Shown: positions 16,860-49,229 of the stretch, one piece after another
Position numbering within the stretch: position 1 is the stretch's first letter
Layout of the letters: each line of letters begins with the position of its first letter
Source of the DNA: Aestuariivirga litoralis
Lineage (GTDB): Bacteria > Pseudomonadota > Alphaproteobacteria > Rhizobiales > Aestuariivirgaceae
Assembly (NCBI RefSeq): GCF_003234965.1
Contig: NZ_QKVK01000001.1
Span: 434,001-498,000, forward strand
Direction: 5' to 3'
DNA length: 64,000 nucleotides
Notes under the pieces: generated by a model
What the model was told of the DNA's origin: nothing
Seen by the model: only the letters and a program-made list of their open reading frames with translations
Databases searched by the model: none
Position numbers and translations under genes: made by a program

Positions 16860-17219
16860 TCAGGCCGCCATCAGGCGCTCGACCTCGTTGACGAGGTCGC
16901 GCAGGTGGAAGGGCTTGGAGAGCACCTTGGCGTCCTTCGGGGCCTTGGAATCCGGGTGCAGGGCCACGGCGGCGAAGCCGGTGATGAACATGATCTTCAT
17001 GGAAGGGTCGAGTTCCGAGGCCCGGCGGGCCAGTTCGATGCCGTCCATCTCCGGCATCACGATGTCGGTGAGCAGCAGGTCGAAGCTCGCGTGCTTGATT
17101 TCCTCGAAGGCGCTCATGCCCTCCCCGAAGCTGGTCACCTCGTGGCCGGCCTTCTGCAGGGCCTTCACCAGGAAGTTCCGCATGTCGTCGTCATCTTCGG
17201 CGAGGAGAATTTTGGCCAT
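16860..17219 (-). CDS. cpdR: Single-domain response regulator CpdR
   Basis: With start ATG 17217-17219 the product is 119 residues, a lone receiver domain: MAKILLAEDDDDMRNFL with the acidic pair, LLLTDIVMPEMDG with phospho-acceptor Asp52, IMFITGFAA, and LSKPF with the conserved lysine. An in-frame ATG three codons upstream (MKTMAKILL) is also possible. The sequence matches CpdR of Caulobacter and rhizobia, which in its unphosphorylated form goes to the cell pole and primes ClpXP to degrade CtrA and other cell-cycle proteins. Phosphate normally comes from CckA through the phosphotransferase ChpT. It is divergent from the formylglutamate amidohydrolase gene. Confidence 0.9.
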   Translation of the reverse strand: MAKILLAEDDDDMRNFLVKALQKAGHEVTSFGEGMSAFEEIKHASFDLLLTDIVMPEMDGIELARRASELDPSMKIMFITGFAAVALHPDSKAPKDAKVLSKPFHLRDLVNEVERLMAA

Positions 17220-39690: not shown

Positions 39691-41053
<1,363 letters not shown>

Positions 41054-41137: not shown

Positions 41138-41503
41138 TCAGCCCGCCGGATAGGCGCCGCGCGCCGCCGCCGCGAATTCCGCCGCCGCCACCTTCAGGCC
41201 TTGCAGGCGCAGTTGGCGAAGCCCGGCCTCGCCCGGAAAGGCCAGGGTTTCGAGGCAGGCGGCAAGATTGTGCAACTTCTGCGCACCCACGGCAGCACAT
41301 GACCCCTTCAGCGTGTGGGCCGCGAACTTCCATTCCGCCGCCGTGCCGGCCTCATCCAGAAGCTGCAGCGTGGCTGGCAGCTGGGCCAGGAAAAGCCCCA
41401 GCACTTCGGCGGCAAGCCTTTGATCATGCATGGTATTATGCTCAAGGCCGAGGCGGTCGAACACCGCGCTGTCGGCTTCCGGCTTCAGCTTGGCACTGGC
41501 CAT
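41138..41503 (-). CDS. Hpt (histidine phosphotransfer) domain protein
   Basis: ATG 41501-41503, preceded by GGGAGGA, gives 121 residues. An Hpt four-helix bundle fills most of the protein: DQRLAAEVLGLFLAQLPATL, then FAAHTLKGSCAAVGAQKLHN with the phosphorylated histidine in HTLKGSCAAVGA, then LAACLETLAF. It has no kinase of its own nearby and should relay phosphate between a hybrid kinase and a response regulator. It faces the GPR-like gene across 329 bp that contain a CtrA-type box. Confidence 0.88.
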   Translation of the reverse strand: MASAKLKPEADSAVFDRLGLEHNTMHDQRLAAEVLGLFLAQLPATLQLLDEAGTAAEWKFAAHTLKGSCAAVGAQKLHNLAACLETLAFPGEAGLRQLRLQGLKVAAAEFAAAARGAYPAG

Positions 41504-41832
41504 CGACTGGTCCTCCCACACACCCCTTCCGAAGCCTACGCCGCAAGCCTGAGCAGATCGTAAAGGGCCGCCCCGCGGCGCGGGTTTTCGGCAAATTTTT
41601 CAATGCCTCCCCGGCCTTTAACCAATTTTTAAATAATCGTGCCCGGCAGCCCGAAGGCGGGTTCAACCGGCCCTCCCGATGGGCTATGGTAAAGATTGCG
41701 AAGCCGCGTCCCGATGGCGCCGGTCCGCGCTCCGGACATAAAAAAGCCGGGCGGGGGCACCATCGGGTGTGGCCGGGGCAGCGCGGCATCCCAAAGGGAG
41801 CCGCTTGTTTGTAATTGTGCGGGATATGACAC
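41504..41832. other. Divergent control region of the Hpt and GPR-like genes
   Basis: No gene is seen. The left half has a long low-GC stretch with the CtrA-type box (41618-41632). The right half has a GC-rich hairpin region (GTCCGCGCTCCGGAC, then AAAAAAGCCGGGCGGGGG) and a weak ribosome site GCGGGAT before the GPR start. Confidence 0.6.
41618..41632. promoter_or_regulatory. CtrA-type binding box
   Basis: TTAACCAATTTTTAA is an exact match to the CtrA consensus TTAA-N7-TTAA. It lies 201 bp before the GPR-like start and 115 bp before the Hpt start. CtrA is the master cell-cycle regulator of alphaproteobacteria. Confidence 0.6.
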
Positions 41833-44800
41833 ATGGCCAACACCACCGACACGCGCCGTTCTGACCGTCGCCAGGCCGATACGGACGCCACGAGGCGCGA
41901 CGTGCCACGGCTGTCGGGTGAACCGGCACCGGTCAAGGGCCGCCCCGCCAATGAAAACGACCCCGGCACCGCCATGCTGCTGGCCAAGATGCGCCGCCGC
42001 CCGTCCTTCACGCCCTATGCGCTGGTCTCCGTCATCCTCACCGCGCTGTGGTCCTTCGGCTGGTTCTATGTCAGCTCCGGCACGCTGGGCGGGGCCGCCC
42101 CCGCCGCCGTCGTCATGCAGGCGCTGGCGCTGCTACTGGTGCCCGTCGCGGTGATCTGGATCGGCGCCTTCACCCTGTGGCGCGCGGCCGACATGCGCCA
42201 GGTGTCGGAAGCCCTGTTCCAGTCCGCCATGCGCCTCGTCCGCCCGCAGGACATCGCCACCGAGGGCCTCACCACCATCGCCCAGGCGGTGCGCTCCGAG
42301 GTCGACCTGCTCGTCGGCGGCGTCGAGCACGCGGTGCAGCGCGCCGCGGTGCTGGAGGAAATCGTCCACAAGGAAATCGCCGCCATCGAGCGCGCCTTCG
42401 GCGGCAACGAGGAGCGGATCCGCAACCTCGTGGCCGGCATCGAGAACCAGCGCTCCGCCCTGCACCAGGCGGCGCTCCTCATCTCGAACGACACCAACCC
42501 GCTGATCACCCGGCTCGAGAACAACACCAAGAACCTCGATGGCATCATGATGGCCGCCCAGGACACGCTGGGCCGCCTCGAAGGCGGCCTGCGCGAGATC
42601 TCGGGCTCCGTCGTCAACGCCATGGAGGACATGGCCGACCGCGCCAATGCCGCGGGCTCCGAGGTCTCGATGCAGACCGCCCACATGGAGGACGTCTCGA
42701 CCCAGATGCTGGGCCAGCTGCGCGAATTCTCCCACCAGGTCGGCTCGCACATCGAGCAGATGAAGATGGCCTACTCGGCGCTGAACTCCGAGACGGTCGA
42801 CTTCAGCCGCACCGTGCAGGACATGGAATCGAACATGACCGGCCTGGTCCGCAACGCGGTCGATTCGCTTGCCGCCGTGCACGAGGACATTTCGCGCGTC
42901 ATCGAGCGCTCCTCCGTCGCCTCGGCCGACCAGATCCGCCAGCAGGTGGCCGACCTGGCCGAAGTGGTGCAGACCACCGGCGCCAATCTCGGCTTCCACA
43001 TGAAGTCGATCGCCGAGGACGTGACCGGCAATCTCGAGCGCGTCAGCGTCGACACCGCGCAGCTCCTCGAGCAGAGCCGCACCATGGTCACCCAGGGCAT
43101 GCAGACCCTGTCGTCCGACTATATCGAGCGCGTCGCCCAGTCGCGCGCCGAGCTCATCACCTATCTCGACCAGTCGGCGGCAGGCGTTGCCGCCGCGGTC
43201 GACGAGGCCACCGACACCGTGGCGGGCCGCCTCAACGCGGCCGGCACGCAGTTCCTCACCGGCCTCGACCAGACCTCCTCCGCACTCCTCGAGGAGCTGG
43301 GCTCGATGAGCACCGGCGTCTCCGGCCGCATCGAGCAGACGACGGGCCGCCTCATCGACGAGATCGGCAACCGCGCCGACACCATCATCACCAGGCTCGA
43401 CGATTCGGCGGGCGGCGTCTTCGCCCGCCTCGACGAGCAGGCCGGCCTCATTTCCACCCGCGTCGAGGAAACCGCCACCCGCCTCCTCTATACGATCGAG
43501 GACCGCACCGCCGCGGCGGCCGCGCGCGTCGGCGAGGCGTCCAGCCAGGTGCTCGCCGCACTCGACCAGCAGAACCTCGATTCGGCCGAACGCGTCACCG
43601 AGTCGGCGGCGCGCGTCGAGATGGCCATTGCCCGCGCCACCGACGAGTTCACCGCCAGGATCAGCGCCTCGCAGGGCGACATCGTGGCCCGCGTCGATGA
43701 GTCCGTCGCCGCCGCCCTCGCCCGCCTCGAGGACACCTCGACGGAACTCCGTGCGCTGATGAACCAGACCAGCGGCGACGTGCTGGGCCAGCTGGACGGC
43801 CGCACCCGCGACATGCTGGACCAGCTCGACGCCGTTCTCGGCACCGCCAACACCCGCCTCACCGATGCGGCCACCACCTTCCACGCGGTCATCAGCCAGA
43901 CCAGCGACAAGCTGGAAGACCGCATCGGCGTTTCGGGCGAGGCGCTCAACGCCCTCATGGCCACCGCCGTCGAAACCGCGCGCTCGCGCATCGACGAGGC
44001 CTCCGGCCTGTTCCATTCGATCGTCGAGCAGGTCACCGGCAGCATGGAATCCCGCCTCGGCACCTCAACCACGCTGATCGAGGACCAGGTGTCGCGCGCC
44101 ATTGCCGCCGCCTCGGGCCGCCTCGACGACACCACCCGCATGTTCCAGGAGCTGATCGGCGGCGCCTCGGAGGAAATCGAACGCCGTGTCGACGGCGCGG
44201 CCGAGCGCTTCTATGGCCAGATCGAAACCTCGGTCAGTGCCGCGACCGGCTCGCTCGACCAGGCCAACAAGACCTTCCAGGACGTCATCACCGGCACCGC
44301 CGGCGCCGTGGTGGGCCAGATCGGCACCGCCACGCGCGAGATCATCGGCTCCGTCGAAACCACGGTGACCGAGGCCTTCGGCCGCTTCGAGAACTCCGCC
44401 ACCTCGTTCCAGGCGCTGATCTCCGGCTCGGCGGACGACCTCGAACAGAAGGTCGACGGCGCTGCCGAGCGCCTCTTCGTGCGCATCGCCGAAACCGCCG
44501 AACAGGTGACGAGCCAGATCGACGACGTCAACGAGCGCGTCAGCACGCGCCTCGGCGAGACCTCTGCAAGCGCCACCACGCGGATCGAGAGCGTGGCGCG
44601 CAGCATCAACGAACTGATGGCGCAGACCAGCACCACGGTCGCCGCCCACCTCAAGGACACCGCCGACATCGTCAACCGCGAGATGGCGGAATCGGGCGTG
44701 GCACTCGCCGAGCGCATCGAGAATTCCGGCGGCCAGGTGACCGACAAGCTGATCACCGTCTCCGACAGCTTCACCCACAACCTGGCGCGGGCCCGCGAGG

Positions 44801-46947
44801 ACCTGCTGACCATGATCACCACCTCGTCGGAGGACGTGACCAAGCGCCTCGCCGACACCACCATGCAGCTCTACGCCAAGCTCGACGGCACCACCTCCTC
44901 GATGACCGGCCAGCTCGAGACCACCGCGACCAAGCTCTACACCAGGCTCGACCAGGTTTCGGCCCACATGTCGGGCGAGCTGGAGAACACCGCCCAGCGC
45001 ATCACCGATTATATCTCGACCTCGGCCGGCGACGCGGTGACCAAGGTCGCCTCGGTCACCGACCGCCTCACCACGCAGCTCGACAATTCCTCCCAGCAGC
45101 TGGGCCAGCTCATCGACCACACGTCCGAGCGCCTCGGCAGCCAGCTCGACCAGGCAGCCAACGACCTCTCCGCGCTGTTCGGCAATTCGACCGAGACGCT
45201 GACAAGGCGGCTTGACGAGACCTCCTCGCACCTCTCGGAGATCTTCACCACCAACACCGAGATGCTGAACGGCCAGCTCGAGGACACCTCGGTCAAGCTC
45301 TCCGAGCTCTTCACCACCAACACCGGCATGATCAACGGCCAGCTGGAGGAGACCTCGGCCAAGCTCTCCGAGCTCTTCACCACCAACACCGAGATGATCA
45401 ACAGCCAGCTCGAGGACACCTCGGCCAAGCTGCAGGACCTGTTCACCAGCAACACCGGCAAGATCTCGGAGGAGCTGGGCGACACCTCGAACCGCCTCTC
45501 CAACCTGTTCTCGGTCAATGCCGAGCGCCTGAGCGAGACGCTGGACAATACCTGGAACAGCTTCTCCAGCCTGTTCAACGACAAGACCGAAGCGCTCACC
45601 GAGCAGCTCGACCGCACCTCGGCCGACCTCAACGAACTGTTCATCGCCAACACCCGCATGATGGCGCAGCAGATCGACAAGACGGCCACCGAGATGACCG
45701 ACAGCTTCTCGGAAACCGCGGTGCGCGTCACCCAGCAGGTGAGCGACGTCAACCGCGTCATGGCCCAGCGTCTCAGCGACGCCTCCTCCGAGGTCACCTC
45801 GCAGCTCGACACCGCAGGAACCTCGATGCTCGCCCGCATCGAGAAGACGGCGGAGGTGCTGCGCCAGCGCTTCGACAACTCGACCGGCATGCTGGAGCGC
45901 GTCACCGACGAGCTCAACACCAAGCTCGATGGCACCGGCCTGCGCTTCGCCGACATTCTCGACCAGGCCTCGGGCGCCATCCTTGCCGACCTCGGCAAGG
46001 CGAGCCAGGCGCTGACCCAGGAACTCGGCACCACCACGGACGAGATCACCAGCCGCATCGCGCAGGATTCGAGCCAGCTCACCGCGCGCGTCGAGCAGGC
46101 GGCACGCGAACTCGAGCAGATCTCGGCCTCGACCTCGGTCAAACTCGAGGATGCCAACCGCAAGTTCGCCAAGCATGTGGAAACCGCCACGAGCTTCCTC
46201 GCCGAGCAGCTTGCAAGTGCTGCCAGCACCATGGACGAGCGCCTCGAAACCGTGGCGGGCGACCTCACCGGCCGGCTCGAAGGCACCTCCACCCGCGTGT
46301 CCGAACGCCTCGACGATGCCACCACGCTGGTGCAGCGCTCGATCGAGCGCTTCAACGGCGAGATGGAACGCGTGCTGGCCGACCGCCGCCAGGCGCTCGA
46401 AAGCCTGGTGGCCGACGCCGCCACGCAGGCCGGCGAGATCGACAAGGTCATGGGCAGCTACATGAACCTGATCGAGGATTCGCTCGCCGCCTCCGAGGCC
46501 AAGGCGCGCGAGATCAGCCGCATCGTGGCCGAGCAGTCGGCGCTTGCCACCCGCAACCTCGAAAAGGAGATCGCGCGGCTGGAGGAAACCTCGGGCGGCC
46601 AGATCACCCAGGCGGTGCGCGTGCTGCGCGACCAGCACGAGCGCGCCATGGCGGCGATGAACGAGATGCTGTCCTCCACCGCCACCGACTTCCAGCAGAC
46701 CGCGCAGGACATGCGCCTCACCGCCCAGCAGGTGGTGAAGGACATCGACGCGGCGCGGGGCGACCTGCTCCGTGCACTGACGGATCTTCCGGAGGAGACC
46801 CGCTCCAACGCCGATGCCATGCGCCGCGTGGTGGCCGACCAGATCGGCGCGCTGGCGGCACTGGCCGACGTGGTGAAGCGCCAGGCGGGGGCGCTGGACG
46901 TCTCTGGCCCCGGCGCCGGCCGCGGCAAGGCCCCGACCAAGAACTGA
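41833..46947 (+). CDS. Giant polar-growth coiled protein (GPR/RgsE-like)
   Basis: A 1704-residue protein. After a charged, disordered N-terminus (about 55 residues) come two membrane helices (FTPYALVSVILTALWSFGWF and AVVMQALALLLVPVAVIWIG); the rest, about 1590 residues, is almost entirely amphipathic helix with short repeating segments such as RLDDSAGGVFARLDEQAG and LSELFTTNTEMINGQLED. This is the architecture of the growth pole ring protein GPR of Agrobacterium and its Sinorhizobium homolog RgsE, which look like apolipoproteins and form a ring at the growing pole. Length is somewhat below the roughly 2100 residues of Agrobacterium GPR. A local 66-nt repeat lies near the C-terminal third. Identity rests on architecture, not alignment. 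Confidence 0.75.
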   Translation: MANTTDTRRSDRRQADTDATRRDVPRLSGEPAPVKGRPANENDPGTAMLLAKMRRRPSFTPYALVSVILTALWSFGWFYVSSGTLGGAAPAAVVMQALALLLVPVAVIWIGAFTLWRAADMRQVSEALFQSAMRLVRPQDIATEGLTTIAQAVRSEVDLLVGGVEHAVQRAAVLEEIVHKEIAAIERAFGGNEERIRNLVAGIENQRSALHQAALLISNDTNPLITRLENNTKNLDGIMMAAQDTLGRLEGGLREISGSVVNAMEDMADRANAAGSEVSMQTAHMEDVSTQMLGQLREFSHQVGSHIEQMKMAYSALNSETVDFSRTVQDMESNMTGLVRNAVDSLAAVHEDISRVIERSSVASADQIRQQVADLAEVVQTTGANLGFHMKSIAEDVTGNLERVSVDTAQLLEQSRTMVTQGMQTLSSDYIERVAQSRAELITYLDQSAAGVAAAVDEATDTVAGRLNAAGTQFLTGLDQTSSALLEELGSMSTGVSGRIEQTTGRLIDEIGNRADTIITRLDDSAGGVFARLDEQAGLISTRVEETATRLLYTIEDRTAAAAARVGEASSQVLAALDQQNLDSAERVTESAARVEMAIARATDEFTARISASQGDIVARVDESVAAALARLEDTSTELRALMNQTSGDVLGQLDGRTRDMLDQLDAVLGTANTRLTDAATTFHAVISQTSDKLEDRIGVSGEALNALMATAVETARSRIDEASGLFHSIVEQVTGSMESRLGTSTTLIEDQVSRAIAAASGRLDDTTRMFQELIGGASEEIERRVDGAAERFYGQIETSVSAATGSLDQANKTFQDVITGTAGAVVGQIGTATREIIGSVETTVTEAFGRFENSATSFQALISGSADDLEQKVDGAAERLFVRIAETAEQVTSQIDDVNERVSTRLGETSASATTRIESVARSINELMAQTSTTVAAHLKDTADIVNREMAESGVALAERIENSGGQVTDKLITVSDSFTHNLARAREDLLTMITTSSEDVTKRLADTTMQLYAKLDGTTSSMTGQLETTATKLYTRLDQVSAHMSGELENTAQRITDYISTSAGDAVTKVASVTDRLTTQLDNSSQQLGQLIDHTSERLGSQLDQAANDLSALFGNSTETLTRRLDETSSHLSEIFTTNTEMLNGQLEDTSVKLSELFTTNTGMINGQLEETSAKLSELFTTNTEMINSQLEDTSAKLQDLFTSNTGKISEELGDTSNRLSNLFSVNAERLSETLDNTWNSFSSLFNDKTEALTEQLDRTSADLNELFIANTRMMAQQIDKTATEMTDSFSETAVRVTQQVSDVNRVMAQRLSDASSEVTSQLDTAGTSMLARIEKTAEVLRQRFDNSTGMLERVTDELNTKLDGTGLRFADILDQASGAILADLGKASQALTQELGTTTDEITSRIAQDSSQLTARVEQAARELEQISASTSVKLEDANRKFAKHVETATSFLAEQLASAASTMDERLETVAGDLTGRLEGTSTRVSERLDDATTLVQRSIERFNGEMERVLADRRQALESLVADAATQAGEIDKVMGSYMNLIEDSLAASEAKAREISRIVAEQSALATRNLEKEIARLEETSGGQITQAVRVLRDQHERAMAAMNEMLSSTATDFQQTAQDMRLTAQQVVKDIDAARGDLLRALTDLPEETRSNADAMRRVVADQIGALAALADVVKRQAGALDVSGPGAGRGKAPTKN
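45232..45429 (+). repeat. Three tandem 66-nt coding repeats in the GPR-like gene
   Basis: Units start at 45232, 45298 and 45364, and a decayed fourth begins at 45430. Each encodes 22 residues of the type LSELFTTNTEMINGQLED plus TSAK. Near identity at DNA level points to recent duplication inside an otherwise diverged repeat protein. Confidence 0.85.
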
Positions 46948-46966: not shown

Positions 46967-47944
46967 ATGCGCCTCCTGATCGCCGAAGAACGCTGGCCGA
47001 TTGCCGGCAGCTTCACCATTTCGCGCGGCAGCAAGACCGAGGCCCATGTGGTGACGGTGACGCTGGAAGACGCTGGCCACACCGGCCGCGGCGAATGCGT
47101 GCCCTACCCGCGCTACGCCGAGACCGTGCCGCAGGTCGTGGCGGCGCTCGAGGCGGCGCGCGGAGCCATCGAGGCCGGCATCACGCGCGACGAGATCGCC
47201 TCGGTCCTCGAGCCCCATGCCGCACGCAACGCGCTGGACTGCGCCTTGTGGGACCTTGAAGCCAAGAAGGCCGGAAAGCCGGTCTGGCAGCTCGCGGGCC
47301 TTGCCCAGCCGAAACCCGCCATCACCGCCTATACGCTGAGCCTCGACACGCCGGAGGCCATGGCCGCCGCCGCCGCGCAGGCGGCGGACCGCCCGCTGCT
47401 CAAGCTGAAGCTCGGCCGAGACGGCGATGCCGAGCGGCTGAAGCTGGTCCGCAAAAACGCCCCCAACAGCCGCCTCATCATCGATGCCAATGAAGGCTGG
47501 ACGGCGGAGAACCTCGCCGCAATGCTGGCGGCCTGTGCCGATGTCGGCGTCGAGCTGGTCGAGCAGCCGCTGCCAGCGGGCAATGACGATGCGCTGCTGG
47601 GCCTCTCCCGGGCCGTCACCGTCTGCGCCGATGAATCGGCCCATGGGCTGGACTCGCTCGACCAGCTCATCGGCAAGTATGACGCCATCAACGTCAAGCT
47701 CGACAAGACCGGCGGCCTCACCCCTGCCATCGCGCTGGCCAGGGCGGCGCGCGAACGCGATCTCGGCATCATGGTGGGCTGCATGCTGGCCACCTCGCTC
47801 GCCATGGCGCCCGCCTTCCTGCTCAGCCCGCTCGCCGAGGTGATCGACCTCGACGGGCCGCTGCTGCTGAAGCAGGACCGCCAGCCCGCCGTCCGCTTCG
47901 ATGGCAGCCTCATGCAGCCGCCGCCGCCGACCCTTTGGGGCTGA
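46967..47944 (+). CDS. Dipeptide epimerase (enolase superfamily)
   Basis: A 325-residue member of the mandelate racemase/muconate lactonizing enzyme group. Catalytic residues are in LLKLKLGRDGD (lysine pair), LIIDANEGW, LVEQPLP, CADES (metal ligands) and NVKLDKTGG (second lysine). The set matches L-Ala-D/L-Glu epimerase, which recycles peptidoglycan tripeptide-derived dipeptide. It starts 19 bp after the GPR-like gene, so the two probably share a transcript. The 3' end overlaps the convergent MFS gene by 35 bp. Confidence 0.9.
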   Translation: MRLLIAEERWPIAGSFTISRGSKTEAHVVTVTLEDAGHTGRGECVPYPRYAETVPQVVAALEAARGAIEAGITRDEIASVLEPHAARNALDCALWDLEAKKAGKPVWQLAGLAQPKPAITAYTLSLDTPEAMAAAAAQAADRPLLKLKLGRDGDAERLKLVRKNAPNSRLIIDANEGWTAENLAAMLAACADVGVELVEQPLPAGNDDALLGLSRAVTVCADESAHGLDSLDQLIGKYDAINVKLDKTGGLTPAIALARAARERDLGIMVGCMLATSLAMAPAFLLSPLAEVIDLDGPLLLKQDRQPAVRFDGSLMQPPPPTLWG

Positions 47945-49088
47945 TCAGCCACAGCAGCGCGGCAAGCCCGAAGGCCAGCGCTGCCAGTCCTGCCATCACG
48001 TAGAAGGCGCCGCCGCCCAGCCCGGCATAGAGCGCGCCCGAAGCCCACATGCTGCCCGACAGCAGGATGCCGCTCGACACCACCGAGTAGAGCCCCTGCG
48101 CGGTATTGCGCATCGAGGCCGGCACGCGCTCGCGGATGAAATGCATGGTGCCGAGATGGGTGAGGCCGAAGGACCCCGCATGCAGCGTCTGCACCAGGAA
48201 CAGGATGCCGAGCGGCGGGGCGAGAGCGGTCGCCAGCCAGCGCAGCGTGGCAAGGCCCGTTCCCAGCATGATCAGCCGCACCGAGCCGAAGGTTCTGTAG
48301 AAGCGGTTGGAAAAAGCGAACATGGTGACTTCCGCCAGCACGCTCGCCGCCCACAGCATGCCGATCACGAATTTCGAGAGCCCGAGCGATTCGAAATAGA
48401 CCGAGCCGAAGGCATAGAGGAAACCGTGGCTGGCCTGGCCGAGGCCCGCCGCCAGCGTGAAGGTGATGAAGCTCGCGCCACTCACCAAGGCCAGCACCCC
48501 GGCGAGCCGGATGGGCTGCGCCTTGCCGGTGGCGCGCATTGCCTTGTCGGCGGGCAGCAACAGGCTCACCAGCGCGCCCATCGCCTGCGAGCCGGCAATC
48601 AGCAGGATGACGAAGCCGAGCGGGACGACCTCCAGCAGCGCGCCGGCGCCGAGGCTTCCCGCCAGGAAGCTGAGCGAGGCCCACAGCCTGATGCGGCCAT
48701 AGTCGAGCCCGTAATGGGCACTCCCTTCCACCGCCAGCGCCTCGGTCAGCGGCACGATGGGGGCGAGCAGCGCGGCCGCCAGCATGCCGGCGGCGAGGAT
48801 CGGCCAGAAGCCGCTCATCTGGCTGAGGACGAGATAGGCCGCGGTGGCGCCGAAGGCGCAGGTGATGATCACGGCGCGGCGGCGCTGGGTGAGGTCGGCA
48901 ATGAAGGTGCCGAGCGGAATGCCGAGGATCCGCACCGCCATCATCAGCGCCACCACGAGGGCCACCTCGGAATCGGGCAGCCCCCGGTCCTTCAGCCACA
49001 GGGGCAGGAAGGGCAACTGGATGCCGCTGCCGAGGAACAGCACGGCATTGAACAGCGACAGGCGGAAGCTGAAATTGCGGGAGGGCAT
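47910..49088 (-). CDS. MFS transporter (PPP/HcaT-like)
   Basis: A 392-residue, 12-helix transporter: FRLSLFNAVLFLGSGIQLPF, then LWLKDRGLPDSEVALVVALM, the loop ADLTQRRRAVIITCAFG, and in the second half SFITFTLAAGLGQASHGFLY. Relation is to the phenylpropionate permease/LacY-like branch (HcaT) by the loop motifs and by GLDYGRIRLWASLSFLAGS. The substrate is unknown. Its stop lies 35 bp inside the epimerase gene. Confidence 0.82.
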   Translation of the reverse strand: MPSRNFSFRLSLFNAVLFLGSGIQLPFLPLWLKDRGLPDSEVALVVALMMAVRILGIPLGTFIADLTQRRRAVIITCAFGATAAYLVLSQMSGFWPILAAGMLAAALLAPIVPLTEALAVEGSAHYGLDYGRIRLWASLSFLAGSLGAGALLEVVPLGFVILLIAGSQAMGALVSLLLPADKAMRATGKAQPIRLAGVLALVSGASFITFTLAAGLGQASHGFLYAFGSVYFESLGLSKFVIGMLWAASVLAEVTMFAFSNRFYRTFGSVRLIMLGTGLATLRWLATALAPPLGILFLVQTLHAGSFGLTHLGTMHFIRERVPASMRNTAQGLYSVVSSGILLSGSMWASGALYAGLGGGAFYVMAGLAALAFGLAALLWLISPKGSAAAAA

Positions 49089-49106
49089 GGAGGGCGCGGT
49101 CTCGGA

Positions 49107-49121
49107 TTAACCGCGTCTAAA
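49107..49121. promoter_or_regulatory. CtrA-like box with one mismatch
   Basis: TTAACCGCGTCTAAA fits TTAA-N7-TTAA except that the second half reads TAAA. It lies between the divergent MFS and hypothetical genes. Confidence 0.25.
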
Positions 49122-49229
49122 CCAAAGATTCACCACTCGCCATGATTATGGCGGGCAGTGGTGCCCTGCGGCTGGCGCAGGGGAAGGGGCCCGTCCGCCC
49201 CGTGTCGAGTCAGGTGAGTGGAGTTGCGT

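Follow-up and report, generated by a model that had tools for sequence, protein, structure and literature searches.

The question raised by this locus is whether a match to the CtrA consensus, located between a histidine phosphotransfer gene (hpt) and the gene of a giant GPR/RgsE-like protein (gpr), is a genuine regulatory site and which of the two divergent genes it would serve. The preliminary description of this DNA had proposed that CtrA times the growth-pole ring directly through this box. Our analysis covered a window of 64,000 nucleotides from Aestuariivirga litoralis together with related genomes, and suggests a different arrangement, to which we give a probability of about 60%: a CtrA site in a shared hpt-gpr promoter region, from which hpt would be activated and gpr would be held down. 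Such a site would provide a single mutable element for testing how polar growth is switched on and off by the cell-cycle circuit of alphaproteobacteria.

The box and its flanking genes

The gap between the two genes (41504-41832) is the interval separating their ATG starts. On the minus strand, hpt (41138-41503 from the ATG, with a GTG at 41521 as a possible alternative start) encodes a one-domain histidine phosphotransfer protein (Pfam PF01627, E 3.2e-10). The protein has a His-Thr-Leu-Lys-Gly (HTLKG) motif, the His of which is invariant in 19 aligned sequences and presumably represents the phospho-acceptor. It was also considered as a candidate for ChpT and rejected, since the sole genomic match to PF10090 (HPTransfase) is found elsewhere, beside ctrA (C1:272964-273314). 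A role in phosphotransfer, inferred for the window protein, would be common to it and to the ChpT of the CckA-ChpT-CtrA relay; however, the two belong to different protein families, ChpT to PF10090 and the window protein to the classical Hpt domain.

On the plus strand, gpr (41833-46947) encodes a giant coiled protein of 1704 aa with seven stretches matching the Apolipoprotein domain (3.4e-61) and with N-terminal hydrophobic stretches visible by eye. The Agrobacterium tumefaciens protein GPR (PMC8262873) and its S. meliloti counterpart RgsE (PMC7327166) are likewise giant, carry apolipoprotein-like repeats and are widespread in the order; at 2,115 and 2,089 aa they are of different length, and the window protein is likened to them by its size and repeats. 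Scores below the cut-offs were also obtained for the GPR-like protein with ZorA anti-phage models, which likely reflects a resemblance between coiled coils. A second, weak match to the GPR N-terminus (29 bits) lies in a 725-aa frame (C26:167525-167959; L304), a possible GPR paralogue.

The regulators of the cell-cycle circuit are encoded in the genome. CtrA was identified by NF045991 (424 bits, cut-off 350), its best solved relative being CtrA 4qpj (228.6 bits over residues 1-118), and ctrA and the ChpT gene are neighbours on the contig of the window, at another place. CpdR is encoded in the window itself (about 16860-17216, minus strand; NF046022, 204.9 bits, cut-off 180). The domain and family matches bear out all three genes named in the preliminary description, namely an Hpt gene on one side of the box, a GPR/RgsE-like gene on the other and cpdR in the same window. 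A RAMA-domain protein is also present in the genome and is taken to be CcrM.

The box itself, likewise claimed beforehand as a full consensus match at 41618, is exact: TTAACCAATTTTTAA at 41618-41632 on the plus strand reads TTAACCA-ATTT-TTAA, that is, TTAA-N7-TTAA. This pattern occurs once in the whole window (0.01 in shuffles), and within the gap TTAA words are found solely at 41618 and 41629. With up to one mismatch, TTAACC-N5-TTAA gives two matches in the window, compared with 0.04 in shuffles. The other match, at 49107, differs at one position and lies within the last 40 nt of an ORF (47901-49145) that matched no Pfam family, and it was rejected as a second window box. The half-site TTAACCA, present once in the window and expected 0.59 times from shuffles, does not exceed chance. 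In the entire genome (4.23 Mb) the full pattern occurs at 21 sites, compared with 11 for the reversed control, and TTAACC-N5-TTAA with one mismatch allowed occurs 50 times on both strands, compared with 41 for the control, and is hardly enriched. By sequence alone the match is therefore only moderately convincing, and about half of the full sites in the genome could be due to chance. Since these differences are too weak to decide, conservation was used to judge the box.

Conservation of the gene pair and of the half-site

The arrangement of the two genes is widespread in the order. The N-terminal region of GPR was matched in 281 and Hpt in 251 of 297 genomes, and in 83 of the 87 genomes for which both places were listed the genes are divergent and within 5 kb of each other; the places came from the best 150 of 297 genomes per search, listed best-first, so this sample leans to strong matches. 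Outside the family of the window, 114 regions were compared (74 from the divergent set and 40 with an Hpt not previously listed), and Hpt was found on the opposite strand upstream of gpr in 99 of them, on the same strand in none, and not detected in 15. Longer gaps were counted whole, irrespective of intervening genes; one region with a gap of 3668 (G351) and seven of the remaining regions were left out. Of 12 further regions, the 10 with both genes were used and two without Hpt (L238, L239) were dropped. Even outside the order, Hpt lies on the opposite strand upstream in 7 of 15 GPR-bearing genomes, with TTAACC upstream of GPR in 3 of these 7, so that the hpt-gpr pair may predate the order. 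In three of the regions with undetected Hpt (L190, L198 and L222; families f40 and f4), ferredoxin and/or reductase genes, recognized by eye, are divergent to gpr; in the window, ferredoxin/reductase genes are located beyond Hpt at 39691-41053, and Hpt seems to have been lost or changed in these three.

Within the family, 69 genomes were searched, 63 gave an Hpt match, 62 regions were examined and 59 were used, after removal of two regions at contig ends in which no GPR was seen (L032, L278) and one without Hpt (L284). The preliminary description had named conservation of the box upstream of GPR homologs as a check and its absence there as a refutation. That refutation did not come about, and the half-site is indeed conserved: TTAACCA is present in 58 of the 59 gaps, always in the orientation of gpr (3.1 in shuffles, which ignore kinship), compared with 13 for the reversed control word and 29 for the next 7-mer that does not overlap it. 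In the single exception (L271) even TTAACC is missing from the gap. In the other families TTAACC occurs in 80 of 99 gaps, distributed over 22 of the 26 families (22.1 in shuffles, kinship again ignored; reversed control 19 of 99), and its orientation varies between families. It is absent in this set from f2 (0/2), f28 (0/6), f30 (0/1) and f49 (0/1); among the ten further regions it is present in 8, including one of three from f28. When a single gap was taken per family (27 families), TTAACC was the most over-represented 6-mer, with 39 occurrences compared with 6.8 expected from base composition. Six regions of f28 (L187, L195, L201, L207, L214 and L219) keep the Hpt-GPR pair around a gap without TTAACC.

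That the box is merely a chance match could be argued from the expected frequency of the half-site in the window and from the one-mismatch matches that barely rise above the control genome-wide, but with 58 of 59 and 80 of 99 gaps against 3.1 and 22.1 in shuffles this explanation is very hard to credit. More thought has to be given to the identity of the protein that binds. The full TTAA-N7-TTAA pattern survives in just 14 of the 59 same-family gaps, strict conservation is limited to the TTAACCA half, and the conserved block extends beyond the width of a CtrA site; MucR and CtrA have common targets, and a different regulator such as a MucR-type protein might occupy this element in place of CtrA. 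On the other hand, TTAACC together with a TT-A conserved at +11 to +14 (58 same-family gaps) fits CtrA, and several GTTAAC/TTAACC words were seen by eye in the region upstream of ctrA in this genome. We consider binding by another regulator improbable. The box is of the CtrA type, and its conservation suggests a real site that would mainly serve hpt.

Which of the two genes the box would serve

In the other families the position of the box tracks Hpt and not GPR. Measured from where the Hpt domain model begins, TTAACC is located at a distance of 80-230 nt in 55 of the 99 gaps, and the control word in 6. When TTAACC reads toward Hpt, 49 of 82 occurrences fall at 90-209 nt from this start, compared with 16 of 55 when it reads toward GPR. 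The distances between TTAACC and GPR are scattered, from under 100 to over 1000.

Candidate promoters can be proposed on both sides. In the same-family gaps conserved blocks flank the box, with TCA at -18 to -16, a putative hpt -10, and GGTTCAA at +42, in which the gpr -35 would be contained. From the conserved blocks of 58 same-family gaps and their spacing, an hpt promoter is predicted on the minus strand at 41597-41625, with TTGGTT (41625-41620) and TGAAAA (41602-41597) separated by 17 bp, the -35 element of which would lie inside the CtrA box. For gpr, a promoter is predicted on the plus strand at 41662-41690 (TTCAAC/17 bp/TATGGT), and in 30 of the 58 gaps GGTTCA follows the start of the box at a distance of 38-46 bp. 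The predicted gpr -35 begins 44 bp past the box start and is not overlapped by the box, which would precede the predicted start of gpr transcription by about 65-79 bp. A strict scan for sigma-70 promoters and terminators returned nothing, and both predicted promoters were missed by it.

Further half-sites are found on the gpr side. GGTTAA is located 15-125 bp from the box in 32 of 58 same-family gaps (control 7), at exactly +64 in 14 of them, over the predicted gpr -10, and at +32 in 5. The gap of the window has no exact half-site at the -10; it carries GGTAAA (41688-41693, plus strand), one base off the GGTTAA found at the same offset (+70) in its relative L023. On the hpt side, GANTC occurs 9-35 bp from the box in 45 of 58 gaps (control CTNAG 0); no GANTC is present in the gap of the window.

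These positions bear on the claim that CtrA would activate gpr directly from the box and so time the growth-pole ring. The box is conserved beside gpr, the predicted gpr -35 element stands 41-43 bp from the box start in 30 of the 58 gaps, and in 8 of the 15 regions without a detected Hpt the roughly 1300 bp preceding gpr still contain TTAACC. However, the box covers the predicted hpt -35 and not that of gpr, its spacing in other families is clustered relative to Hpt but scattered relative to GPR, and the half-sites at the predicted gpr -10 of relatives suggest repression. Direct activation of gpr thus appears unlikely, and the timing proposed in the preliminary description was not upheld. It is also conceivable that the box serves hpt only, gpr being independent of CtrA and its neighbour by ancient synteny. 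The clustering of distances with Hpt and the conserved blocks on the hpt side would agree with this. Two features of the same family speak against it, a gpr-side element at an almost fixed distance from the box and an enrichment of half-sites on the gpr side, and we regard this reading as a possibility, if not a probable one. The reading should therefore shift from CtrA timing GPR to CtrA controlling the shared hpt-gpr region, with hpt first.

Proposed mechanism and relation to known systems

In Caulobacter, the box is located at the -35 in most CtrA-activated promoters, and half-sites over the -10 accompany repression at ctrA P1 and hemE (PMC11264516). By analogy with these promoters, we propose for joint control of hpt and gpr that phosphorylated CtrA would bind the box between the divergent genes. 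From its position over the predicted hpt -35, CtrA~P would most likely activate hpt. The same box, upstream of the predicted gpr start and accompanied in relatives by a half-site near the predicted -10, would most likely delay or repress gpr, holding it down while CtrA~P is high, and the cell-cycle phases of hpt and gpr would be opposite or staggered.

The parallels and differences can be stated more precisely. TTAA-N7-TTAA is common to the box and to CtrA-bound promoters of Caulobacter and Sinorhizobium, with the -35 position being predicted for hpt (PMC4433202, PMC11264516). Half-sites over the -10 likewise recall Caulobacter ctrA P1 and hemE, but they occur in the relatives of the window. 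In contrast to those known promoters, the target here would be a divergent Hpt/GPR pair, and the orientation of TTAACC depends on the family. Moreover, as in GcrA/CcrM-controlled promoters (PMC3667746), GANTC accompanies the box, beside the predicted hpt -10, in the same-family gaps, but not in that of the window.

In the open literature, as far as accessible to our search and with subscription journals mostly outside it, no report was found of the Hpt-GPR pair or of a link between CtrA and GPR/RgsE. A study of CtrA in S. meliloti (PMC4433202), with 198 CtrA peaks, names neither 'SMc00190' (rgsE) nor 'Hpt' nor 'polar growth' in its main text; 'CtrA' was not found in the available part of the RgsE paper (PMC7327166); the corresponding part of PMC9022086 mentions CtrA and GPR, unlinked; PMC6107284 has CtrA in its reference list only; and for the locus tags guessed as neighbours of SMc00190 and Atu1348 no open paper was found. 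The Hpt encoded beside gpr would be an overlooked candidate in polar growth control. A wider and doubtful extension would be an ancient polar-growth unit, in which CtrA and CcrM methylation might set hpt and gpr opposite to each other and an Hpt phosphorelay might feed back on the growth-pole machinery.

Among the 21 full boxes of the genome, 14 were read as preceding a gene start, whereas 5 are placed where two genes converge and 2 fall within ORFs; in this count short overlapping ORFs at L006, L008 and L009 were disregarded on inspection by eye. The boxes at convergent ends and within ORFs may not be regulatory. Two full boxes with starts 21 bp apart are located between hemE and a PpsR-type gene (C20:333867-333902; L013, L014, L252). 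In Caulobacter hemE adjoins the CtrA-controlled origin, and this double-box locus is possibly the chromosomal origin region. Other full boxes were found upstream of ftsE (C20:294680; L012) and upstream of a gene for a MepK-like peptidoglycan endopeptidase (C1:404664; L005), which scores below its family cut-off.
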